From Ardenticatena maritima (lineage in GTDB: Bacteria; Chloroflexota; Anaerolineae; Ardenticatenales; Ardenticatenaceae), in contig NZ_LGKN01000005.1 in NCBI RefSeq assembly GCF_001306175.1, positions 496,001 through 560,000 on the forward strand: DNA of 64,000 nt, in the 5' to 3' direction. Within the stretch, counting starts at the first letter, position 1; every line of letters starts with the position of its first letter. Under the pieces are notes generated by a model. It was not told the DNA's origin, did not search any database, and was given only the letters and a program-made list of their open reading frames with translations. A program made the translations under genes and the position numbers. Below, piece after piece: positions 12,463 to 43,628 of the stretch.

Positions 12463-14901
12463 TTAGCGCACCACAGAGACCGCTACGTCCAGCGGGGGCG
12501 CGCCTTTCTGGGCAAACCAGTATTGGTGCTCGCGCACGAGGTCGAATTGCAAGATGTAGTCGCCGACTGTCTCCGGGGCGACCACCGGCACGCGCAGGCA
12601 GAGCGATTGCGTCGGGTAGAGCGTGTAGGGCAAGCGCACGCGCTCCGATTCCCACTGCACGACGTCGCCCTGGGGGGTGAGCCAGTGGTATGCGACAAAG
12701 ACGGGATACCAGTCTTCGGAGCGCCACGATTGAGTGCCGTCATTGCGGAAGCAGACGCGCACCGGGTAGAACTCACCGGCTTGCATGCTGTGCGGCGTGG
12801 TATGGTCGAGCCAGGTGAGGCGGTAGAAGCCCTCATCGAAGGCGGCGCGTTGGGCGGCGATGGCGTTGGCGTCGTGCGGCCAGCCGCGCCGCAAGAGGAC
12901 GACGCCGTTTTCCCACGCCACCACGCCAAATTCGGGGTTGGCGAGCAGGCGGTTGACCATGTCGAAATAGGCGAAGTAATCCAGCGGGGCGCGTTCCGCG
13001 CCGTTGTCCAGGTCGAGCAGGACTTCTTCGGCGTCATCCAGCCCGACGGGGAAGAGGTACAGGTAGCGCCGGTTGGCGACGTGCGGCACAAGGTCGCTTT
13101 GTCCGCTGAGGCGGCTTTCAGGCTGAACGTATGTGAGCACCGTGCGGATGGCGTCTTGGTGGGGGGTGTTCACCCAAAAGCGCGCCAGATGAAAATCCTT
13201 GCCCGGTGGGAAGGGGCTGAAAAAGTAGCCGACCAGCAACGCCGAGAGCAAGATGTAGAGCGCCGTCCCGTCGCGCCAGAAGGCGTCGCGGCGCAGGCTG
13301 GGCTGAATGCGAATGGCGATGGCAGCGGCGAAGAAGATGAAGGGCAAAATCGGCGCGAAGTAGTGCGCCTGCACCGTGCCTTGCCAGGCGGAGTCGGCGA
13401 GCAGGTTGACGAGCAGGAGCGGCACGATGGCAACCAGCCAGACGGGGGCGAGCAGTGCCACGCCGCCCACAGGCATGAAGAGGTCGAACAGCGTTTGCAC
13501 CTTTTCGCGGTCCAGGAAGAGCCCCAAAAGGGTGCGGGGCTGTTGGGCAAGCGTGCGGGCGATTTCCAGCGGCGTCTCGCCGTATTGCCCAAAACGCTGA
13601 TTGACCAGCGCCAGGGGGTCGGGACCGTAGCGGGCGGTTGCCCACGGTACGATGACGTAGAAATCCACCAGAAACCAGGCGACCGCCGCCAGCAATGTGA
13701 AAAGCCCCACGCGCCATTGCTCGTATGCCATGAACGCCAGCGCCAACCCCGCCAGCGCAAACGCGACGTCCACGCGGCAGGCGAGCGCCAGCACCAGCGC
13801 CAGCGCGTAGAGCCGCCAGCGGTCGGTGACGCTGGCATAGAGCATCCACGCCAGGAAGAAGGGCGCCAGCGCCGAGGGGTGAAAATCCGCCATGTTGACG
13901 TAGTGCAGGGGCAGGTAGGCGAGATAGGCCAGAGCGAGCAGGGCGGCGGTGCGCCCAGAATCGGTGACTTTCTCAAAAGCCAGGAAGAGCGGCCAGGCGC
14001 TCAAGCCCAGCAGGGCGGTTTGAATGAACAACAACAAGAGTGGGTCGGGCCAGAGGCGGTAGAGCGGCGCAATCAGCAAGAAAATAAATTCGGCTTTGCC
14101 GGACGTGAGACGGTTGGAGATGGGGGGCGCGGCGGTGGTGGCTTCTTCCGGCATGGGGGTGTATTCCAGCCAGCGCCCGTGCGCTGTGTTCCAGGCGGCT
14201 TGCGCCATTGTGCCCAGGTCGAGGGCGTGGCTGCGAAACGAGAGATGGCGTGCCGCCGAAAGTCCGCCGAAGACGGCGAGGTAGAGCAGAATGCCGACGA
14301 TGACGACGAAGGCGGGGCGCACACGTTCACGCCACGAAGGGCGCACGTTGGTGTCGGTCAGCCAGTCGGGGGGGCGTTCGTTGCGTTCCAGCCAGGGCAC
14401 GAGCACAACCGCCAGCGTGAACGCGAGCGGGAGAATCAGCACATACGTCCAGAATGAACTGCCAATCCCCATGCCCAACGGTGTCCAGAGATAGCGCACG
14501 CCAATGAGCGGCATGCAGAAGAGCGGCAAATACCCCCGCGCCAGACGGCGCGCCCAACGGACAAACGGCGGCCATGTTCCGCGCTGGAAGAAGGTGGTCG
14601 GCGTCCAGGGACTGATGTGCAAGCGCCGCCAGGTTGCCAGCAGCCAGAGCACCACCGCCACCCCAGCGCCAACCGCCAGAAAGCGCTCCAATTGCAGGCG
14701 GTGGTAGGTGAACAGCGTATCGGTGTTCCAGAGTTTAGGGAGTTGCGCGGGATAGGTGTAATCCCACAAGGCAAGCCCTGCTGCTGCGCCTGCGGCGGCA
14801 ACCAGTAACAACGCATCAACAAAGAACCAGAGCCGCTTCCAGCGCCCCCATTGCTCTTTGGCGTCTTCTTTCCACCAGTCGGGTTCGTATGGTCGCCGCA
14901 T
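12463..14901 (-). CDS. DUF2079 polytopic membrane protein with C-terminal beta domain
   Basis: Large membrane protein, 812 residues from the ATG at 14901, chosen because AAGGGGGAAG lies just upstream; the longer frame to 15120 has no coding character. A first pair of helices is followed by a family-typical segment, ALDLGTMAQAAWNTAHGRW, characteristic of DUF2079, a group related to GT-C glycosyltransferases. About a dozen helices follow. The last 120 residues form a soluble region with WLDHTTPHSMQAGE and VCFRNDGTQSW, which looks like an immunoglobulin-type domain that may recognise surface polymers. Function is unknown; a role in cell-surface glycosylation is inference. Confidence 0.75.
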   Translation of the reverse strand: MRRPYEPDWWKEDAKEQWGRWKRLWFFVDALLLVAAAGAAAGLALWDYTYPAQLPKLWNTDTLFTYHRLQLERFLAVGAGVAVVLWLLATWRRLHISPWTPTTFFQRGTWPPFVRWARRLARGYLPLFCMPLIGVRYLWTPLGMGIGSSFWTYVLILPLAFTLAVVLVPWLERNERPPDWLTDTNVRPSWRERVRPAFVVIVGILLYLAVFGGLSAARHLSFRSHALDLGTMAQAAWNTAHGRWLEYTPMPEEATTAAPPISNRLTSGKAEFIFLLIAPLYRLWPDPLLLLFIQTALLGLSAWPLFLAFEKVTDSGRTAALLALAYLAYLPLHYVNMADFHPSALAPFFLAWMLYASVTDRWRLYALALVLALACRVDVAFALAGLALAFMAYEQWRVGLFTLLAAVAWFLVDFYVIVPWATARYGPDPLALVNQRFGQYGETPLEIARTLAQQPRTLLGLFLDREKVQTLFDLFMPVGGVALLAPVWLVAIVPLLLVNLLADSAWQGTVQAHYFAPILPFIFFAAAIAIRIQPSLRRDAFWRDGTALYILLSALLVGYFFSPFPPGKDFHLARFWVNTPHQDAIRTVLTYVQPESRLSGQSDLVPHVANRRYLYLFPVGLDDAEEVLLDLDNGAERAPLDYFAYFDMVNRLLANPEFGVVAWENGVVLLRRGWPHDANAIAAQRAAFDEGFYRLTWLDHTTPHSMQAGEFYPVRVCFRNDGTQSWRSEDWYPVFVAYHWLTPQGDVVQWESERVRLPYTLYPTQSLCLRVPVVAPETVGDYILQFDLVREHQYWFAQKGAPPLDVAVSVVR

Positions 14902-14973
14902 CGTCTTCCCCCTTGGCATGATGGCGTGATTGTACACAGGGCGCGCAAGAGGGAAAACTGTTTGCAAACGTGT

Positions 14974-15001
14974 TTGGCAAGGCGCAAATGGGCGGTACAA
15001 T
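14974..15001 (+). promoter_or_regulatory. Candidate sigma-A promoter of the CPBP gene
   Basis: TTGGCA (14974-14979) and TACAAT (14996-15001) are separated by 16 bases, about 95 bases before the start codon at 15095. A divergent TACAAT-type -10 for the DUF2079 gene lies on the other strand at 14929-14934. Confidence 0.5.
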
Positions 15002-15094
15002 CGTGATGTTCGTCTGTTCTTGCCACGCAACTTCCTTTTGCCGTACCCGACAAAACAAGCGTTGTTATCGCTGATACATCTAGGAGAATGCAAT

Positions 15095-15673
15095 ATGGCA
15101 TCATTGATTTTGTATAGCATTCCTTTGATGATTTACGCGTTTGTTGCCAAGTGGAAGTTTAAGGACGAATGGCGTGATATTGCCCAACGACTTGGATTGA
15201 CGGTTGGCCAAAGCACCTACTACTGGTGGGCGTTGGGGTTTTCTGTATTGGGCGTCGCCTTTTCGTGGATGTTATGGCCGACGATTCCTGAGGATGTAAA
15301 AAGCCAACAATTAATGGCAGTAAGCCGGTTTGCTGGGGAAACGTTCACTCTTAAAAATTTGTTTGCTATATTGACTTTTGGGATGATTGAAACGGGGTTA
15401 GGAGAGGAATTGTTTTTCCGTGGACTCATCGCTGGTTGGCTAGGGCGACGACAAGCACTCTGGCGAGCGAATGTGATACAAGCCGCTATTTTCACCTTAC
15501 CCCACCTTTTGGTGTTGATCGTAGATATACGCCTATGGCCTGTTGCTGTTGTGTTGCCGTTTGTGGCTGGATTGATGACGGGATGGCTCAGATTGAAATC
15601 GGGGAGTATCATTCCAGGGTGGTTGGTTCATGGCGTGAGCAATGTGGCATCCGTCCTGTTTGTCATGATATGA
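15095..15673 (+). CDS. CPBP-family intramembrane metalloprotease
   Basis: Membrane-embedded protein of the CAAX-protease/bacteriocin-processing (ABI) family, 192 residues from the ATG at 15095, which has TAGGAGA nine bases upstream; the longer frame upstream looks non-coding. The first catalytic motif is GEELFFRG (EExxxR) and the second region contains FTLPHLLV with the conserved His. About five hydrophobic helices are visible. Base composition is clearly more AT-rich than the neighbours, suggesting recent transfer. It stands alone between a DUF2079 gene and a sortase gene, so its substrate cannot be guessed. Confidence 0.8.
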   Translation: MASLILYSIPLMIYAFVAKWKFKDEWRDIAQRLGLTVGQSTYYWWALGFSVLGVAFSWMLWPTIPEDVKSQQLMAVSRFAGETFTLKNLFAILTFGMIETGLGEELFFRGLIAGWLGRRQALWRANVIQAAIFTLPHLLVLIVDIRLWPVAVVLPFVAGLMTGWLRLKSGSIIPGWLVHGVSNVASVLFVMI

Positions 15674-22206: not shown

Positions 22207-23637
22207 ATGCCAAATCTTCATTTTCATCAACAGCAATTGCTCATACGGTTGTTGGAATCGTCAACACCGATGAGCGCCGCCGCATTGGGGGCTTCGCTTG
22301 GGCTGAGCCCGGCTCAGGTGCGGTATGCTTTACGGGGTGTGCAGGACTGGCTGGCGCGTTTTGGGCTTGCGCTCAGGATGCAAGCGGGGGTCGGCATCGT
22401 GATTGATGGGACTGTTGAGCAAAAAAGTGCCGCATTGGAAGCGTTGCGCCGGACGCAACAGAGCGTTTGGGTGGACGCAGAGCGGCGGCGTTTTTTGGCT
22501 CTTTACCTTCTCGCTGAAAACGAGCCTGCTATCCTCTATCAACTTCAACGGTTGACCACCGTTTCGCGGCGGACCCTCTTTTTGGATTTGGATGCGCTGA
22601 ATGAGTGGCTGGCTTCTTTCGATTTGATGCTCAAGAAGCGGCGCAACTATGGTGTGTGGATCCAGGGCGACGAAAAGAGCAAGCGGCAAGCCATAGCGGC
22701 GTTGCTGTGGGGGGCGTTTCCGGGGGCTGGAAGCAGTGTTCGCATTTCCTACGAGCATGGCATGATCCTGGATCGCACGCAATTGCCCGCTGTGAAATTG
22801 ATTGATGAGGTCGCGCAGATCATCAAACACCTTGATCTCAAACGTGGCTTGCACTACGTGGAGCGGGCTGAAACGCAAATGGGTGTGCGTTTTACCGACG
22901 AAGGGGCGTTGGCGTTAGCCTTGATGTTTGCTTTGCAAGTATGGCGTGTTCAGCAAGGGGATGTGGTGGATATTGCGGACGATTTGGTCTCGCGGGTTCA
23001 TACGTTGCCCATTTGGAATGTTGCAACGCGGATTGCTGAACGATTGATTTGGTGGTCGAACAATTCTGCATGGCCGGTTGATGAGATTGCTTTGCTGGCT
23101 ATGGCGCTGTTGGCGGCGCCTCGTGATGCCCTGTGGGTTGAGGATCTGGCGCTCGAGCCTCGCCTGGTTTCTCTTGTGGATGATTTCTTGCGGGAAGCGG
23201 CACAACAGTATGGCGCGCCGCAATTTTCGCATGACACAACCCTCCGAACGAACCTGCTTGTTCATGTCATTCCGGCATATTTTCGGCAGGCTTTTCGACT
23301 GTGGTTTCCCACGCCCAATGTCGAACTGCCGCCGCGCTATCACCGCGAATATGCACTGGCGCAGCGCTTGAATGCGCGTCTGGTTGATGAAGTTGGCGTT
23401 GAGTTGTCAACACAAGACCTGTTCAACATAGCGCTGCTTTTGCGTGCGACGTATCTTCACCAACAGCCCTATTACCCGTATCGTGTTTTGTTAGTTTGCC
23501 CCAGTGGTATGGCCACTTCACAAATACTGATGGCTCGTCTGAAGGCGCGGTTTCCTCGTTTTCGGCATATCGAAGTTGCTTCGTTGCGCACGCTCCACCA
23601 GCATGACTTGTCCTCCATATACCAACTCCATCGTTGA
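22207..23637 (+). pseudogene. PRD-type transcription regulator (BglG/MtlR-like), truncated by IS
   Basis: Regulator of the family that combines helix-turn-helix domains with PTS-regulation domains. The 476 residues show an N-terminal winged helix (LLIRLLESSTPMSAAALGASLG) and a second helix-turn-helix around LTTVSRRTLFLDLDALNEWL. Two PRD modules follow (about 190-390), then the start of an EIIB-like domain, VLLVCPSGMATSQILMARLKARF, with its Cys. The EIIB domain stops after about 38 residues, where the left end of the insertion element supplies the last codons and the stop; the expected EIIA domain is absent. No PTS transporter or sugar operon lies nearby. It is probably inactive or altered in control. 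Confidence 0.75.
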
Positions 23638-23647
23638 AGGGTACAAT
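23620..23647 (+). repeat. Left terminal inverted repeat of the IS630-family element
   Basis: Starts TACCAACTCCA and continues to a GTACAAT block. It matches the right end (24701-24728, inverted) at 19 of 28 positions. Confidence 0.8.
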
Positions 23648-23673
23648 AGCGGAAAAAAACCGGAGGCAAGAAG

Positions 23674-24639
23674 ATGCCTGGACGCAAAGCCCATACGCAT
23701 GGCGACCGGGCGATACGGAAGCGGTGTGGCAGGAGCGGTACCGCAAAGAAAAGCACCCGCAGCGCCGCGAGCGGGCCTGGGCATTCCGGCAGCCGGCCCG
23801 GGGAAAAAGCATCCGCCGGGTGGGCCAGGCGCCGGGCCGCAGCCGGAACACGCTGCACCGCTGGCTCAGGTGGTACAACGCAGGGGGCTGGGAGGAAGTG
23901 GTGCGGCGGACCCATGGCCGCCGTCCGGGCGCGCGTCAGGGGTCTCGGCTGAGGGAAGAACAGGCGGCGGCCCTGGAGGAAGCGGCCCGGCAGGGGCAGT
24001 TTCGCACGGTATGGGACGTGGTGGCTTGGGTGAAGGAAAACGTTGGGATGGCCTATTCGTATTCCGGCATGCATGCCTGGTTGCGCCGGCGGGGGTGGCG
24101 GCGGAAGCAGCCCCGCCCGCAAGGGGTGAAAGCCGATGAACAGGCCCAGACGGCCTGGAAAAAGGGGGGCTGAAAGCCCAGGTGGCGGGGTTCTGTGGCA
24201 AGAAGGTGCTGTTTTGGGATGAGATGCGTGTGGGAGGGTTGGACCAGATACGGCATCGGTGGGCGCCTCGGGGGATGAAACTGGTGCAGAAAGTGGCCAT
24301 GCGCTTTGAGTGGGTGTATCTGGTGCTGGCGGTGGCGCCGGGGCGTGGGGAGATTTGGTGGACCTGGATACCGACCATGGGGGCCGAAAGCCACAAAAAG
24401 GCCCTGGAAGCGGCGGCGCAGGCCACGGGCATGGAGGCGGTGATTTGGGACCGGGCGCCGGGGCATCGGGCCAAAGCGTTGGCAGGGGTGGCCGTACGAC
24501 GGATTTACCTGCCCCTTACTCGCCGGAGCTGAACCCAATAGAACGTTTGTTTGAAGAGGTGCGGCGGGCAGTGGAGGGGTACCGGTATCCCACGTTGGCG
24601 GAGAAACAGCAAGCGGTGGAAGCTGTGTTGCACAGGTAG
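23674..24639 (+). pseudogene. IS630-family transposase, frameshifted three times
   Basis: DDE transposase that can be read only by joining frames. MPGRKAHTHGD starts at 23674 behind AGGCAAGAAG. A frame change near 23705 leads to WQERYRKEKHPQRRERAW and the helix-turn-helix ARGKSIRRVGQAPGRSRNTL. A second change at the A5G6 run (24159-24169) leads to the catalytic domain with VLFWDEMRVGG and VIWDRAPGHRA. A third at CCCC (near 24513) leads to YSPELNPIERLFEEVRR with the catalytic Glu. Each break is repaired by adding one base. The A5G6 site could be programmed frameshifting; the other two look like decay or homopolymer undercalls. Confidence 0.8.
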
Positions 24640-24700
24640 CAGCAACGGCCTGACCTGGTGCGTTCGCTGACGAATTGGTCATGGATTCAGCAAGCCTTTA

Positions 24701-24995: not shown

Positions 24996-25144
24996 ACACC
25001 TGCGCCTATTATACGCCGCCTCTGGTCTCGGTCAAACGCCTGGCGATGAACGCCCGCATGCCCCTTTGGTCTCCGCTCAAAGTCGAGTATGCTTTACGCC
25101 GCTTGATGTGCGAACCCGCCATCCCACGAGTGGAAGGAGCATGC

Positions 25145-26695
25145 ATGACGAACAAACCACGCGCCCCACATACAACCTACCTCGGCATTGTCGTCTTCGT
25201 TGGCGGCTTGGTTTCCTTGGGAATCGAACTGGCAGCCTCGCGCTTGTTGGCGCCTTTTTTCGGAACGTCCCAATTGGTCTGGATGAACCTCATCGGGCTG
25301 ATTCTGCTCTACCTTTCGGCGGGCTATTGGCTCGGTGGGCGATGGGCGGACCGTTCGCCTCACCTGACAACCTTGCTTCTCATTTTGGTTGCCGCCGGTG
25401 TCAGTGTGGCGCTGGTGCCTGTGCTGGCGACGCCCCTGCTGCACAACGTGCAAACATGGCTGGTGAACTACGAAAGCGCCTGGCTCATCGGCTCGTTTCT
25501 GGGGGTGTTGCTCTTGTTCGCCTTGCCGATGACGCTCCTGGGGTGCGTTTCCCCTTTTGCGGTGCGGCTGGCAACGGCAGATGTGCGTGAAAGTGGGCGT
25601 GTCGCCGGGCGGCTTTTCGCGCTCTCCACCATCGGCAGTTTTCTGGGAACTTTTTTGCCCGTGCTGCTCCTCATTCCGCTGATGGGCACACGCGCCACCT
25701 TTTTCACATTCAGCGCCTCTCTCTTCGCCGTCACGTTGCCGGGTTTCTGGTTGGTGCGCCGCCGCCTGTTGATTGCCGTGCCGCTGGCGGGCATGGTGCT
25801 GGTGGGCTGGTTGTGGTGGACCGTGCAGGCGTCCCCCATCAAACCCCACGCAAACTTGCTTTACGAAACCGAGTCCGCGTATCAGTACATTCGCGTGCTG
25901 GAAGACGCCGACGGTATGCGCTACCTTGAATTGAACGAGGGCGTTGGCACACACAGCATCTACCACCCGGAACGCCTCTTTACCCAACGCCTGTGGGATT
26001 ACTTCGTGGCGCTTCCTGCGTTTGCCGCCCAACCAAAACCGCTCGACGAACCCCGTTCCTGGGGCATCATTGGGCTGGCGGGCGGAACAGCGGCACGCCT
26101 CATTACCGCCACCTACGGTCCCGACCCCATCACCGGCGTTGAACTTGACCCCAAGGTCGTGGATGTGGCGCGCACCTACTTCGCCATGAACATGCCCAAC
26201 CTCGACGTGGTGGTGCTCGATGGACGCGCCTGGCTCGCCCAAACGCCCAACACCTACGACCTGCTCATCGTGGACGCCTACCGCCAGCCGTACATTCCCT
26301 TTGAATTGACCACGGTCGAATTTTTTCAGGCGGCGCGGCGGCATCTCACGCCTGACGGGGTTATCGCCGTCAATGTGGCGCATGGCGAAGATGAGCGTCT
26401 GGTGGATGCGCTTGCCGCAACCATGCAAACCGTTTTCCCGACGGTCTATCGCATGCCGGTCCCGCACACCTACAACACCTTCCTCATCGGCACGGTGCGC
26501 CCCACAACGCCCGAACAGGTGAGTGCCAACAGCGCCATGTTTGCGCCGCTTCTGCCTGCGCACCTGGTGCAGTGGGTTCAACAGGCGCGGCTTGCCCCAC
26601 ACACCAACGCGCAAGTGCTCACCGACGACCACGCGCCGGTGGAGTATCTGGTGGATTGGCTGATTGTGCGTGAGGGCGTGCGGCTGAACCGCTAG
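25145..26695 (+). CDS. Membrane-fused spermidine synthase-like protein
   Basis: Protein of 516 residues from the ATG at 25145 (GGAAGGAG upstream; the longer frame to the left crosses the tRNA gene). The N-terminal half has about seven membrane helices (for example YLGIVVFVGGLVSLGIELAA and NLIGLILLYLSAGYWLGGRW). The C-terminal half is a spermidine-synthase-type Rossmann domain with GLAGGTAARLI, VELDPKVVDVAR and YDLLIVDAYRQPYIP. The DAY segment holds the equivalent of the catalytic Asp. Such fusions are common in Chloroflexota and their real substrate is unproven. The stop codon overlaps that of the convergent gene. Confidence 0.82.
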   Translation: MTNKPRAPHTTYLGIVVFVGGLVSLGIELAASRLLAPFFGTSQLVWMNLIGLILLYLSAGYWLGGRWADRSPHLTTLLLILVAAGVSVALVPVLATPLLHNVQTWLVNYESAWLIGSFLGVLLLFALPMTLLGCVSPFAVRLATADVRESGRVAGRLFALSTIGSFLGTFLPVLLLIPLMGTRATFFTFSASLFAVTLPGFWLVRRRLLIAVPLAGMVLVGWLWWTVQASPIKPHANLLYETESAYQYIRVLEDADGMRYLELNEGVGTHSIYHPERLFTQRLWDYFVALPAFAAQPKPLDEPRSWGIIGLAGGTAARLITATYGPDPITGVELDPKVVDVARTYFAMNMPNLDVVVLDGRAWLAQTPNTYDLLIVDAYRQPYIPFELTTVEFFQAARRHLTPDGVIAVNVAHGEDERLVDALAATMQTVFPTVYRMPVPHTYNTFLIGTVRPTTPEQVSANSAMFAPLLPAHLVQWVQQARLAPHTNAQVLTDDHAPVEYLVDWLIVREGVRLNR

Positions 26696-27630
26696 CGAGG
26701 AAGCATGGGCGTGCTGTTGAGCACGCGCTGCATCACGTCGGTTTGCACATAACGTTCGATGGAATCGAGGGCGAGCGCCACGATGGGGGTTGTTTCGGTT
26801 GCCATGGTTTGGGCGAATTTGAGCGCCCCCGCCACCGCCGCGCCGCTCGATGGTCCCACCAGCAACCCTTCCATGCGCAGGAGACGCGCCAGGGCTTCGT
26901 AGGCTTCGGACGTGCTGATGTCAATCACGTGGTCAATCACGTCATCGTTGTAGAGGGTGGGCACGAAAGGCGCGCCCATGCCGTAGATGTGATGGTTGCC
27001 CGGCTTGCCCCCCGTCAACACGGGTGATTCGGCGGGCTGGACGGCGATGACGCGCACATGGGGTTGATGGTGTTTGAACCATGTGCCAATCCCCGTACAC
27101 GCCGCGCCAGTCGTCACGGGAATGACAACCGCTTGCACCGCCCCGTCTGTATCACGCCAGATTTCTTGCGCGGTTTGCTGGTGCGCTTCCGCAGCGGCGG
27201 CATTGGCAAACTGGCGTGGGCGAAACACTTTGGGATAGGCGTTTGCCAGTTCATCGGCGCGCGCAAAGGCGTTGTTCATGCCATGCGTGACGTGGACGTC
27301 GGCGCCCATGGCGCGCAAGAGGCGAATGCGCCATTCCGGCACCCAGTCGGGAAGGACCAGGACGAGGCGATAGCCGCGCGCCGCGCAGACCATGGCGAGC
27401 GAAAAGGCGATGTTGCCCGCCGTTGGTTCGATAATCACCGTATCGAGGTCAACCAGTCCCTGGCGTTCGGCGGATTCGATGATGGCGAGCGCCACGCGGT
27501 CGGTATCGCTGTGGGTTGGGTTGGCGGTTTCCAGTTTCAGGTAAAGGGGCATCCGCAGGTGGCGCGCCAGCGAATTGAGCGCCACCAGTGGTGTATTGCC
27601 GATGAGGTTAAGGCTGTTTTGTGCAATCAT
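26692..27630 (-). CDS. CysK-fold protein lacking the PLP lysine
   Basis: Homologue of O-acetylserine sulfhydrylase/cystathionine beta-synthase, 312 residues, full length and colinear with the family. It starts LNLIGNTPLVALN and keeps the asparagine-loop position (EPTAGN, Asn73) and the VGPSSGAAVAGAL region near the C-terminus. The segment that should read NPxxSVKDR, whose Lys forms the Schiff base with PLP, is NPTHSDTDR, so residue 43 is Thr. The phosphate-binding GTGGT loop is also changed, to TTGAA. It cannot be a normal PLP enzyme. It may be a regulatory or binding pseudoenzyme, or use another ligand. It has a clear promoter and no frame damage, so it is not simple decay. Confidence 0.85.
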   Translation of the reverse strand: MIAQNSLNLIGNTPLVALNSLARHLRMPLYLKLETANPTHSDTDRVALAIIESAERQGLVDLDTVIIEPTAGNIAFSLAMVCAARGYRLVLVLPDWVPEWRIRLLRAMGADVHVTHGMNNAFARADELANAYPKVFRPRQFANAAAAEAHQQTAQEIWRDTDGAVQAVVIPVTTGAACTGIGTWFKHHQPHVRVIAVQPAESPVLTGGKPGNHHIYGMGAPFVPTLYNDDVIDHVIDISTSEAYEALARLLRMEGLLVGPSSGAAVAGALKFAQTMATETTPIVALALDSIERYVQTDVMQRVLNSTPMLPR

Positions 27631-27670: not shown

Positions 27671-27698
27671 ATTATACGAAGGCAAGCCGAATTGCAAA
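27671..27698 (-). promoter_or_regulatory. Candidate sigma-A promoter of the CysK-fold gene
   Basis: On the minus strand TTTGCA (27698-27693) and TATAAT (27676-27671) are 16 bases apart, about 40 bases before the start codon at 27630. Confidence 0.65.
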
Positions 27699-27714: not shown

Positions 27715-29988
27715 CTAGCGCCCCCACACTGCGCGATACGCGCCCCAATGGGTGTAGACGGCTTCCACGTAGGTGCGCGTCTCGGCAAAGGTGATGTTTT
27801 CCACGAAGAGGTCGGGGTCGGGGTCGTGCCAGCGGGCGGCGTTGCCGGGACCGCCGTTGTAGCCCGCCAATGCCGCGAAGACGTCATCATCGAATTGCTG
27901 CAAGACGTAGTTCAGGTAGAACGCCCCGAAGCGCACGGCGACGGGCACGCGGTAGAGGTCGCGGTCGGTGGTGGGTTCGCCCAGCCGCGCCGCAATCCAT
28001 TCGCGTGTGGCGGGAATGACTTGCATCAGCCCGCGCGCGGCGGCGGAACTGGTGGCGCGGCGTTCCCAGCGGCTTTCCTGGTAGATGACGGCGGCGAGGA
28101 GCAGCGGGTCGAGTTGGTAGGTGCGGCTGGCGTCGTTCAGCAGGGCGGCAAAGGGCAGCGGGTAGGCGAGGCGCGCCACGTCGGTTGGCGCGGTTTCGGG
28201 CGTCCAGCCGTGGGTGCGCATGAGAATGCGTGCCGCGGCAATGCTGAGCGCGTATTCGCCTTGTGCGTAGAGGGTGGTGGCGGCGGCGATGAGGCTGTCG
28301 GGGGCGTCTTGCGCCAGTTCTTCAAAGAGCGCCAGGTAGGCGGTGCGCGCTTCTTCGGACAAGCCGAGCCGACGCAGTTCTTCGGCGCGTTCCCATGCGG
28401 CGGTGGTGGGCGGTGGTGTGTCGGGGGCGGGGGTGAACGATGTGAGGGTGCGCGTGGTGCGTGGCGCCGGCGGGGAATCGAGCAGGTCGCGCGCGCGGAG
28501 GACGTAGAAATCGAAACCGCTTTGCGCGGTCGTTTGCCAGCGCGCACGGGCGGCGTCGGTGTCGCCCATTGCGGCGAGGGCTTTCCCCTGCCAGAACGTG
28601 GCTTGCGTCTGCCAGCCGTCGTAAGCCGCGAGCCTCTCCCAGTCCGCCAGCGCGGTGGGCGTCTCGCCCAGGCGGTAGCGCAACATCCCCGCCGACCAGA
28701 GCGCATCGGCGGCGTGGGTGTCGTTGGGGAAGCGCTGCGCCAGGGCTTCGTAGAGGGTGGCGGCGCGTTCGGGCGAGGTGCTGTGCAGCAGGTGGGCGCT
28801 TTCCCAGAGGGCTGTGGCGGCAAGGGGGCTGTCGGACGTGGCGAGTTGGGCGTAGGCGGCGACGGCGCTTTCGGTGTCGCCTTGGGCGGCGTCCACGCGC
28901 GCTTGTTCCAGCAGGGCGTCGTCTTGCAGGTCGCTTTCGGGGTGCGTTTGCACGATTTTGTCGAATTCCCGCCACGCCTGTTGCCAATTGCCGGCGTTTT
29001 TGAACGCGATTGCCGCCCACCAGTGGGCTTCGGCGATGTCGTCAGTTTCGAGGAGCGCCCAGCACGTTTGCACGGCGGCGTCCCACAAGCCGTTGAGCGC
29101 TAGCACGCGGCACTCATCCAGCGGGGCGACGGGGTGCCCATGTTCGGCGAGGGCTTGCAGGGCGGCAAAGGCTTCGGGCGTGTCGCCGTGTTCGGCGATG
29201 AGGGTGCGCCACCAGTGGAGCGCCAGCGGCAAGCGTCCACGCGCCAGGTCGGCGTTGGCAATGGCGGCGATGAGCGTGGCGCGGAAAGAGGGGACGCGCG
29301 AGTCGCGCAGGGCGGCGCGATACCAGGAGGCGGCGGCGTCCCACATGGCAAGGTCGGCGTAGATGTCGCCCAGGGTGCGGGCGGTGAGCGCCCGTTGCAC
29401 ACGGTCGCCCCGTGCGTCGGCGAGGCGGTAGCGGCGTTCGTAAGCGGCGATGGCGTCCTCGGTGCGCCCCAGGGCGGCGTAGGCGCGCGCCAGCGCCAGC
29501 GCGACGGCGTCGTCGGCGGCGTCGCGGGCGGCGTCGTACGCCAGGTAGTGGTGCACGGCGGCGTCGTATTCGCCCAGTGCTGCGAGACGTTGCCCCAGCC
29601 GAAAGTGGGCGTAGGGGGCGAAGGGGCTTTCGGGGTGGCGCTGGAGGAGCGCCTGAAAGACCACGCTGGCTTGCAAGAAGCGTTCTTCGCGTTCGTAGAG
29701 CACGCCGAGTTCCCAGAGGGCTGTGTCGGCGAGCGTGGGGTCTTCTTGCAGTGCCAGGTAGTGCCCCTCGGCGGTTTCGAGTTCACCCAGGCGGGCGGCT
29801 TCGCGCGCGAGCGCCAGCCGTTCGGCGGGCGCCGGCGTGGGGGTGGGCGGGACGATGGTGGGCGTGGCGGTTGGTTCGGGCGTGGGCGTGGTGTCGGGGG
29901 GCGTGGGACGGCACGCGCCCGTGATGATGAGCAGGAAGAGGGCGCAGAGAACGCCGCATATCTGCGCCCTGTGGCGTTGGGTGCGCAT
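27715..29988 (-). CDS. Lytic transglycosylase lipoprotein with TPR array (Slt-like)
   Basis: Exported peptidoglycan hydrolase of 757 residues. A lipoprotein signal ends in LLIITGAC, followed by a Pro/Thr-rich linker (PTPEPTATPTIVPP). A long run of TPR-like helical repeats (about 55-580) forms the ring-shaped superhelix seen in Slt70. The C-terminal domain (about 610-757) is the goose-lysozyme-like SLT domain, with the catalytic Glu in YQESRWERRA, then ARGLMQVIPAT and ALAGYNGGPGNA. Its start overlaps the last base of the mutase gene, so the two are probably co-transcribed. Confidence 0.9.
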   Translation of the reverse strand: MRTQRHRAQICGVLCALFLLIITGACRPTPPDTTPTPEPTATPTIVPPTPTPAPAERLALAREAARLGELETAEGHYLALQEDPTLADTALWELGVLYEREERFLQASVVFQALLQRHPESPFAPYAHFRLGQRLAALGEYDAAVHHYLAYDAARDAADDAVALALARAYAALGRTEDAIAAYERRYRLADARGDRVQRALTARTLGDIYADLAMWDAAASWYRAALRDSRVPSFRATLIAAIANADLARGRLPLALHWWRTLIAEHGDTPEAFAALQALAEHGHPVAPLDECRVLALNGLWDAAVQTCWALLETDDIAEAHWWAAIAFKNAGNWQQAWREFDKIVQTHPESDLQDDALLEQARVDAAQGDTESAVAAYAQLATSDSPLAATALWESAHLLHSTSPERAATLYEALAQRFPNDTHAADALWSAGMLRYRLGETPTALADWERLAAYDGWQTQATFWQGKALAAMGDTDAARARWQTTAQSGFDFYVLRARDLLDSPPAPRTTRTLTSFTPAPDTPPPTTAAWERAEELRRLGLSEEARTAYLALFEELAQDAPDSLIAAATTLYAQGEYALSIAAARILMRTHGWTPETAPTDVARLAYPLPFAALLNDASRTYQLDPLLLAAVIYQESRWERRATSSAAARGLMQVIPATREWIAARLGEPTTDRDLYRVPVAVRFGAFYLNYVLQQFDDDVFAALAGYNGGPGNAARWHDPDPDLFVENITFAETRTYVEAVYTHWGAYRAVWGR

Positions 29989-41121: not shown

Positions 41122-43344
41122 CTAGCCTTCTTTTTCGCGGGTGGCGGCGCGTTTGCGCACCATGCCTGTGCGTGGGTCAATCAGCCCCTCGCGTGCCAGA
41201 AACTCGAACAGGCGCTCGGCGCGCGCCAGGCTCACACGCAAGCGATGCTGAATGAGCCGCGGGCTGAGGCGGGCGTACTGCGTGGTGAGTTCGCGCGCTT
41301 GCGGCAAAAGTGGGTCGGGTTCGGATTCATCCGCGGGCAGGGCGTCCCACAACGATTGTTGCATCAAGACACCTTCGGGCGGCGCATCTACCAGGTTGGT
41401 GGATCGCCGTTTTTCTTTGGCGTGCGCCGGGCGTTGGGCGGCGGCGCTCTGCCAGAAGCGGATGAGTTCGCGCAATTCTTCGTCGCTGACGTAGCAGGCT
41501 TGCGCGCGCATGGGAATTGAGGCGTCGGAACCGAGGTAGAGCATGTCGCCACTGCCGAGCAGGGTTTCGGCGCCCGGTTTGTCGAGAATGACGCGGCTGT
41601 CAATCTGGCTGGCGACGGCGAACGCGATGCGCGCCGGGAAGTTGGCTTTGATCAGCCCGGTAATCACATTGACGCTGGGGCGTTGCGTCGCCACGATGAG
41701 GTGGATGCCCGTGGCGCGCGCCATTTGCGCCAGCCGCGTGATGTTGTACTCCACTTCATCGGGTGCGGTGAGCATGAGGTCGGCGAGTTCGTCAATGACG
41801 ATGACCATGTACGGCAACGGGCGGTCGCCGCGCTCACGTGCGGCGCGGTTGTAGGCGTCCAGGTGGCGCGCGCCCACGGCGCTGAACAGCACATAGCGCC
41901 GCTCCATTTCCGCCACCGCCCAGCGCAGGGCGGGTGTCACGTGCTCAATGTCGGTAATCACCGGCGTCACCAGGTGGGGGATGCCGTTGTAGACGCTCAA
42001 TTCGACCATTTTGGGGTCAATCAACAGCAGGTTGAGCCGGTCGGGCGGGTTGTGGCAGAGCAAGCAGGCGAGAATGGCGTTGATGCAGACCGATTTCCCG
42101 CTGCCGGTTGCGCCGGCGATGAGCAGATGCGGCATTTTGGCGAGGTCGGCAACCAGCGGCGCACCGCTGACGTCGCGCCCGAGGGCAAGCCGCAGAGGGC
42201 TTTGCAGGCGCTGGAATTCGGGCGATTCCATGACGCCCCGCAAGGTGACGATGTCGGCGTTGTCGTTCGGCACTTCGATGCCGACGATGGGCTTCCCCGG
42301 CACCGGCGCTTCGATGCGGATGCGCGGCGCGGAAAGCGCCAGGGCGAGGTCGTTTGCCAGGCGGGTGATGGCGCGCACCTTCACTTTGTAGCGGCGGGTT
42401 TCGCCCCGCACTGTGCGCTCAATGTAGCCCGGTTCAACGCCAAATTGCGTGACGCGGGGACCGCGCTGGACTTCGACAACACGCGCGGGCACATGAAAGT
42501 GCGCCAACGTTTCTTCGATGATGCGCGTTTTGGTGCGAATGGAGAGCGGGTCGAAGGCGCTTTCGTCGTCTTCGCGCAGGAAGGTTTGCCAGGGCGGAAG
42601 CGGCCAGGGCGTTTCATCGTCAAGGGTGGGGGCGGAGGTCGCGCGGCGCGTTATGCCGACGGCGGGAAGCGTGAGCCGTGGTGCGCGCCACCGGCGCAGG
42701 GCACGCCAAGCCTGTCGCCCCAGGGTGGCGGCGAACGCCAGCAACCGCCCCAGCGCGTTGCGCACGGGACGCCACCAGGCGAGTGAGGGGGTGGGCAGGG
42801 GGATGTGCGGCATGGTGGGAAGGAAAGTGTGCAACGGGCGACCACTCACCCAGCGGAGCAGCAACAGCGCTAGCAGACCAAGCACCAACCACGTCCCCCA
42901 GCGCCCGAAACCAAGGAGCAACCAGCGCGCCAATGTCGCCCCAACACGCCCGCCATGCGCTCCGGTTCCCCCGCCCGCCACTTCAAGCGCCGCAAGCGCC
43001 AGCAGACTTCCCGCAAACAGGCCGCCCAGAAAGCGCGGCTGGCGCATTTCGGGCCAATCGAGGCGCGGCGCCAGCAGCCAGGCGCCGATGCTGATCAGGG
43101 CGAGTGTGGCGAACCAGCGCCCCGCCCCCAGCCAGGTTTGCCAGAAAGCCACCCAACGGGCGATGGGGGGGCTGTGCGTGGTGCTGAGGAAAGCCACCGC
43201 AGAAAAAAGCCCCAGCAAAATGAGCAGCAAGGCGGCGGCGTCAACCAGGGCGGCGAATGAAAAGCGAAAACGACGCTGGGATGTGCGGCGTCGTTGACGA
43301 GAGGTTTTTTGGGTTTTGGAACGGGCTGTTTTCTTGCGAGCCAT
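41122..43344 (-). CDS. ftsK: DNA translocase FtsK/SpoIIIE
   Basis: Septum-located DNA pump that clears chromosome ends during division, 740 residues. The N-terminus is basic, then there are about four or five membrane helices (to about 165). A Pro-rich linker is followed by the motor domain with the alpha region VPARVVEVQRGPRVTQFGVEPG, visible as VVEVQRGPRVTQF, Walker A AGATGSGKSVCINAIL and the Walker B region YMVIVIDELADLM. The C-terminal winged-helix gamma domain (about 655-735, AERLFEFLAREGLIDPRTG) would read the polar KOPS-type sequences. The linker is short compared with E. coli FtsK, as in SpoIIIE-type proteins. Confidence 0.95.
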   Translation of the reverse strand: MARKKTARSKTQKTSRQRRRTSQRRFRFSFAALVDAAALLLILLGLFSAVAFLSTTHSPPIARWVAFWQTWLGAGRWFATLALISIGAWLLAPRLDWPEMRQPRFLGGLFAGSLLALAALEVAGGGTGAHGGRVGATLARWLLLGFGRWGTWLVLGLLALLLLRWVSGRPLHTFLPTMPHIPLPTPSLAWWRPVRNALGRLLAFAATLGRQAWRALRRWRAPRLTLPAVGITRRATSAPTLDDETPWPLPPWQTFLREDDESAFDPLSIRTKTRIIEETLAHFHVPARVVEVQRGPRVTQFGVEPGYIERTVRGETRRYKVKVRAITRLANDLALALSAPRIRIEAPVPGKPIVGIEVPNDNADIVTLRGVMESPEFQRLQSPLRLALGRDVSGAPLVADLAKMPHLLIAGATGSGKSVCINAILACLLCHNPPDRLNLLLIDPKMVELSVYNGIPHLVTPVITDIEHVTPALRWAVAEMERRYVLFSAVGARHLDAYNRAARERGDRPLPYMVIVIDELADLMLTAPDEVEYNITRLAQMARATGIHLIVATQRPSVNVITGLIKANFPARIAFAVASQIDSRVILDKPGAETLLGSGDMLYLGSDASIPMRAQACYVSDEELRELIRFWQSAAAQRPAHAKEKRRSTNLVDAPPEGVLMQQSLWDALPADESEPDPLLPQARELTTQYARLSPRLIQHRLRVSLARAERLFEFLAREGLIDPRTGMVRKRAATREKEG

Positions 43345-43390
43345 GGGTGTATTGTAGCACGGCGTTCAGAAGGAACACAACGCAAATGAA

Positions 43391-43432
43391 AACCTGCCAG
43401 GCCTCTTCCTGTGTGAGGAGACCTGGCAGGTT
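43391..43432 (-). terminator. Terminator after the isocitrate dehydrogenase transcript
   Basis: AACCTGCCAGG and CCTGGCAGGTT form an 11-bp outer stem, extended by a TCTTCCT/AGGAGA inner stem, with TTTTCATTTG behind it on the minus strand. It follows the 63-residue ORF. Confidence 0.75.
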
Positions 43433-43440
43433 CGGTTGTG

Positions 43441-43628
43441 CTATCGGCGCAGGTATTCCGCCAGGCGCACGTTGTTTTCGTGGATGAGCGACGCGACAAA
43501 GCGCAAAATGGTTTCGACGTCCACCTCTTCATCGCCCAGCGTCTCGGCGAGCGTGTCCAGAAACTCATCAATGAGCGTGCTCATCTCTTCGTACGAAAGC
43601 CCCGGTGTCTCGCGAGGGTCTTGCATGC

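Follow-up and report, generated by a model that had tools for sequence, protein, structure and literature searches.

A gene in the window, the 64,000-nucleotide stretch of Ardenticatena maritima DNA analysed here, encodes a CysK-fold protein that has lost the lysine with which PLP forms a Schiff base (Table 1). We consider it fairly probable that this protein is a selected pseudoenzyme, that is, a CysK descendant that does not hold PLP through a lysine, is probably PLP-free and has been kept for a binding role. The sequence-only reading of this DNA had preferred a selected non-PLP role to decay, and this preference is supported by a K-to-T change shared between two species, a dN/dS of 0.07, synteny, the promoter and the joint loss of PLP-site residues.

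CysK is already well known as a moonlighting enzyme. Ordinary CysK accompanied by CysE, the lysine-bearing orthologues of sister genera without CysE, and the lysine-less protein of Ardenticatena form an ordered series, and along this series one can test, stage by stage and at a single locus, how a PLP enzyme turns into a non-enzyme. The case also cautions that a best-hit pipeline would label the gene "cysteine synthase", an annotation to be avoided.

Table 1. Features of the CysK-like locus, in positions of the window.
Feature	Position	Strand	Basis or remark
Convergent neighbour, spermidine-synthase-like	25103..26695	plus	PF01564 domain; hydrophobic, membrane-like N-terminal part
PLP-lysine-less CysK-fold gene	26692..27630	minus	ORF, Pfam/NCBIfam match, AlphaFold2, fold match
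Ser261, equivalent of the PLP-ring-nitrogen Ser, kept	26848..26850	minus	Alignment; role according to PMC12785664
Former phosphate-binding loop, residues 173-177, TTGAA (GTGGT in CysK)	27100..27114	minus	Alignment
Substrate loop, residues 70-75, TAGNIA (canonical TSGNTG)	27406..27423	minus	T70, G72 and N73 kept
Codon 43, ACC, Thr for the Schiff-base Lys	27502..27504	minus	Lys in 135 of 139 compared rows
Codon 42, Asp for the PLP-ring-packing Val/Ile	27505..27507	minus	Acidic throughout Ardenticatenaceae
Sigma-70-type promoter, TTTGCA-16-TATAAT	27671..27698	minus	Motif match and conservation between two species
Upstream co-directional neighbour, TPR and SLT lytic transglycosylase	27715..29988	minus	

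An intact gene without the PLP lysine

The open reading frame begins with ATG and continues without interruption for 312 amino acids. Its product belongs to the PALP family (PF00291, E=1.5e-67), and its best fit in NCBIfam is cysK (TIGR01139), for which its 297.3 bits fall below the equivalog cut-off of 350.95. An AlphaFold2 model built with a 48-row alignment reached a pLDDT of 95.3 and a pTM of 0.92, and the nearest solved fold is that of the M. tuberculosis OASS 2q3b (TM 0.90, 45% identity). The gene is intact, and an O-acetylserine sulfhydrylase fold is predicted for its product. The sequence-only reading, which had described a full-length, in-frame gene with a clear promoter, SDTDR in place of SVKDR, TTGAA in place of GTGGT and an otherwise well kept fold, was accurate on each of these points.

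In CysK, PLP is contacted by a Val and the Lys, an Asn, the GTGGT loop and a Ser; the Val packs against the PLP ring, and the Ser bonds the ring nitrogen (PMC12785664). In the A. maritima protein, N73, T174, G175 and S261 are kept, and V42, K43, G173, G176 and T177 are lost. SDTDR is the reading in both Ardenticatena species compared, and three of the five phosphate-loop residues are replaced (G173T, G176A and T177A, the last being T177I in the second species, where the loop reads TTGAI). An alignment with 42 homologues from the class and from other prokaryotes, all 42 of which have Lys at position 43, revealed further changes, namely, S71 and G75 to Ala, P288 to Leu and a deletion of three amino acids after residue 115. 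On the carboxylate side, T70, N73 and Q140 are the same in 48 of 48 sequences. Among the 71 near-invariant CysK positions, 13 have changed in the Ardenticatena protein, and these include four of the seven PLP contacts compared with nine of the 64 other positions (Fisher p=0.018, on a small, hand-picked set).

Because residue 177 is Ala in one Ardenticatena species and Ile in the other, the former phosphate contact appears free to vary. The loss of the residues for covalent PLP and phosphate binding, together with this variability, makes PLP chemistry unlikely, and we infer from the sequence that both PLP and catalysis are absent from the protein. This is the situation of a pseudoenzyme, in which cofactor and catalytic residues have been lost from an intact homologue of a PLP family. 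The fold, the length, the carboxylate-binding T/N/Q and the GISSGAA-type Ser are shared with CysK, but the Schiff-base Lys and the GTGGT loop are missing, Asp replaces Val beside the lysine site, the IGAGF loop carries a G-to-P change, and the genome has no identified CysE.

Distribution of the change

The orthologue of a second species, Ardenticatena sp. S012_161 (WFOS01000115), is 88% identical, occupies the same locus and has the same Thr43, so SVKDR is not restored in the closest species. Position 43 was read in 139 rows, among which some genes are represented in two collections and so entered twice; it is Lys in 135, Thr in three and, in one poor assembly, a stop read as X. The three Thr rows represent the two Ardenticatena species, one of them counted twice, and Thr occurs nowhere else among the compared rows. 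Orthologues with 49-54% identity in four genomes of sister Ardenticatenaceae genera (G002, G003, G004, G005) keep Lys43 within SDKDR or SEKDR, and their loop reads ATGGT, or GTGGT in G003. The acidic residue at position 42 is common to all Ardenticatenaceae. Conservation of the K-to-T and loop changes within a clade, which the earlier reading had named as a check, holds for the two Ardenticatena species but does not extend to the sister genera. The sister orthologues resemble the Ardenticatena protein further in their location beside the spermidine-synthase-like gene, a one-amino-acid deletion before TAxEI and a GMGxPF loop; they differ in the kept lysine and loops and in a dN/dS of 0.15-0.22. 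In the tree, the six Ardenticatenaceae sequences group together (SH-aLRT 98), as does the Ardenticatena pair (SH-aLRT 100).

A wider K-less clade was considered and rejected. Among the best 30 loci from 400 sampled Chloroflexota genomes, where the gene's own match scored 564 bits and the next 377 bits, no further K-less member was found. One genome per species was also scanned with a motif in which T or K was permitted; of the 80 loci retained, only those of Ardenticatena had T.

Two other sequences deserve mention. In the CysK of a class relative (G036:C1:911693-912598), the lysine codon is read as a stop (SVXDR); the assembly is a single contig, 77% complete, in which further residues are unread, and the stop is probably a sequence error. 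The CysK of Barnesiella sp. An55 reads SEKDR, with an acidic residue before the lysine, and keeps the TSGNTG and GTGGT loops.

Selection, promoter and neighbouring genes

Between the two Ardenticatena species, the CysK-like gene has a dN of 0.075, a dS of 1.08 and a dN/dS of 0.070 by the pairwise NG86 method, in which a dS near 1 approaches saturation. This value indicates purifying selection and lies within the range of the syntenic neighbours of the same species pair (0.02-0.18; the gene at 12463-15120 was left out owing to misalignment); the corresponding values for CBS and CysM are 0.013 and 0.022. Two pairs of lysine-bearing sister orthologues are less constrained, with values of 0.152 and 0.215. 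In an LG tree of the CysK-like protein, the Ardenticatena stem measures 0.57 and the tips 0.05 and 0.08, a stem-to-tip ratio of approximately 9. The acceleration on the stem was judged against two control genes, CysM (0.093 vs. 0.014 and 0.026) and a neighbour gene (0.56 vs. 0.03 and 0.19), each with a ratio of approximately 5.

The promoter has 10 of 12 matches, with 0.3 such sites expected in shuffled sequences, and lies within two blocks that are identical in both Ardenticatena species; outside them, the intergenic sequence has diverged. The low dN/dS and the conserved promoter blocks together indicate that the gene is constrained rather than decaying after the loss and is probably expressed.

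The spermidine-synthase-like gene adjoins the CysK-like gene in convergent orientation in all six Ardenticatenaceae genomes, and in A. maritima the 3′ ends of the two genes overlap by 4 bp (26692-26695). The transglycosylase neighbour is common to the second Ardenticatena species only, among the loci compared. The genomic neighbours give no pointer to sulfur metabolism. Farther away, 22207-24640 contains an ORF that may encode a BglG/PRD-like regulator, along with ORFs (23634-24173 and 24182-24532) similar to a split IS630-type transposase; this block is absent from the second species, in which the matching C115 interval (approximately 43214-43524) is a few hundred bases long.

Cysteine and sulfate routes

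A profile search of the six Ardenticatenaceae genomes, which an unrelated type of serine acetyltransferase would escape, returned no CysE over the family cut-off; the sole weak match in A. maritima falls in an ORF of the hexapeptide acyltransferase type (L040). The CysE-supplied O-acetylserine that belongs to CysK function thus has no source over the cut-off in this genome, and CysE as the partner of the protein, one of the roles put forward in the sequence-only reading, is not supported. CysE exceeded the cut-off in eight of 15 other genomes searched, often no more than a few kb from the cysK match, and in several class relatives with an ordinary CysK it lies at most a few kb away on the same contig. 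That reading had also raised the matter of a second, catalytic CysK in the genome. Such a hidden copy was sought and rejected, the only two close paralogues being CBS and a CysM of the CysO/thiocarboxylate type.

The CysM-type PALP gene lies in a cluster (G000:C4:210000-229000; L134:9257-15615) with ThiF+rhodanese, ThiS/CysO-like and rhodanese genes beside SufT/SufU/SufS-like genes, an arrangement suggesting that cysteine is supplied by a thiocarboxylate (CysO) route adjacent to Fe-S assembly. The CBS gene adjoins a gene for a Cys/Met-metabolism PLP enzyme, which we take to be CGL. Judging from the presence of the CysM-CysO cluster and of the CBS and CGL genes, cysteine can be made without CysK.

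Sat-type ATP sulfurylase (PF01747) is absent from the A. maritima genome and present in sister genera. In A. maritima, a CysD-like gene (PF01507) lies beside a gene for a CysN-like GTPase of 667 aa (G000:C9:185000-196000; L156:2757-5782), and the sulfate-activating enzyme has apparently been swapped between genera. Because matches to CysH and sulfite reductase are present along with the CysD-like and CysN-like genes, sulfide can probably still be made in Ardenticatena. The idea that sulfate assimilation was lost along with the lysine was dropped for the same reason, despite the absent Sat.

Proposed origin and role

The clefts of CysK proteins accept the C-terminal carboxylate of partners, as with CysE, CdiA and, for CYSL-1, EGL-9 (PMC5562914, PMC3388911). 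Since the carboxylate-binding residues are largely kept in Ardenticatena, we favour, tentatively, a PLP-free receptor or sensor, presumably regulatory, that uses the old pocket for the C-terminal tail of a protein or for an amino acid. What we say here of the ligand, of the regulatory output and of the sequence of events is inferred.

A possible history, held with the same reserve, is that a CysK lineage lost CysE, dropped PLP and became such a receptor, with the lysine-bearing sister orthologues as the intermediate stage. The ancestor of Ardenticatenaceae would have lost CysE, and cysteine synthesis would have shifted to CysM/CysO and CBS-CGL, so that CysK may have been freed from making cysteine from O-acetylserine. 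The active-site loops would then have diverged with the lysine still in place. On the Ardenticatena stem, the lysine, the phosphate loop and part of the substrate loop would have been lost in one burst, after which the K-less protein would have come under strong purifying selection. A ligand with a carboxylate group, be it an amino acid or the C-terminal tail of a partner protein, may now occupy the old cleft, and this occupancy would be passed on as protein binding.

Alternative explanations

In the main rival reading, the protein is a subunit with no catalysis of its own that forms a complex with CysM or CBS, both active paralogues, and tunes its partner. In favour of this, no part of the fold has been lost, enzymes of the CysK family usually form dimers (PMC12895370), plant TSB-like with TSA offers a precedent for a pseudo-subunit of fold type II (PMC12727527), and both candidate paralogues are encoded in the genome. 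However, CysM and CBS, the nearest paralogues with catalytic function, share no more than 37-38% identity with the CysK-like protein and lie at separate loci, and both also occur in sister genera in which the CysK-like protein still has Lys43; we regard this arrangement as unlikely. It is more doubtful still that the protein continues to work as a PLP enzyme, either with PLP bound non-covalently or with another residue in the role of the base. N73, T174, G175 and S261 would be available for this purpose, and CysK-type proteins with a mutated lysine still fold and crystallise (the K-to-A mutants 1z7y, 3vc3 and 3x44 are among the fold matches, and 3x44 has its substrate in place), so that, on the sequence alone, PLP could conceivably be bound non-covalently. 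Nevertheless, the Schiff-base Lys, three of the five phosphate-loop residues and the ring-packing Val have been lost together, position 177 alternates between Ala and Ile in the two species, and Asp42 adjoins the site of the lost lysine.

The strong constraint, the burst of change on the Ardenticatena stem and the conserved convergent spermidine-synthase-like neighbour would also suit a new, PLP-independent enzyme chemistry in the same cleft. We rate this as very improbable, given that the protein shows no evident new set of conserved catalytic residues and that no precedent for the CysK family was found in the literature searched. The loss of catalytic residues, taken alone, could suggest a decaying pseudogene or an assembly error. 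Short of an artefact common to both genomes, both were rejected as extremely improbable because the same changes occur in an independently assembled second species, the frame has no stops, the dN/dS is low and the promoter is conserved.

Comparison with known systems

Antizyme inhibitor, an ODC homologue, belongs to fold type III. Similar to the selected pseudoenzyme that we propose for Ardenticatena, it is a homologue of a PLP enzyme that lacks catalysis and is kept as a regulator (PMC3084279), but it is eukaryotic, has a known partner, antizyme, and has a different fold. The literature searched contained no natural bacterial member of the CysK family that lacks the PLP lysine. Compared by description only, CYSL-1 of C. 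elegans is a CysK homologue that has likewise lost its biosynthetic activity and regulates by binding the C-terminus of a partner (PMC5562914); in contrast to the present case, its partner is known to be EGL-9, and its bisulfide-binding site is described as kept. Plant TSB-like is a pseudoenzyme of the fold-type-II PLP family that has been kept for allosteric binding (PMC12727527), but its two key changes are an active-site Glu and an Asp-to-Glu switch rather than a replaced PLP lysine, and its partner, TSA, is known.
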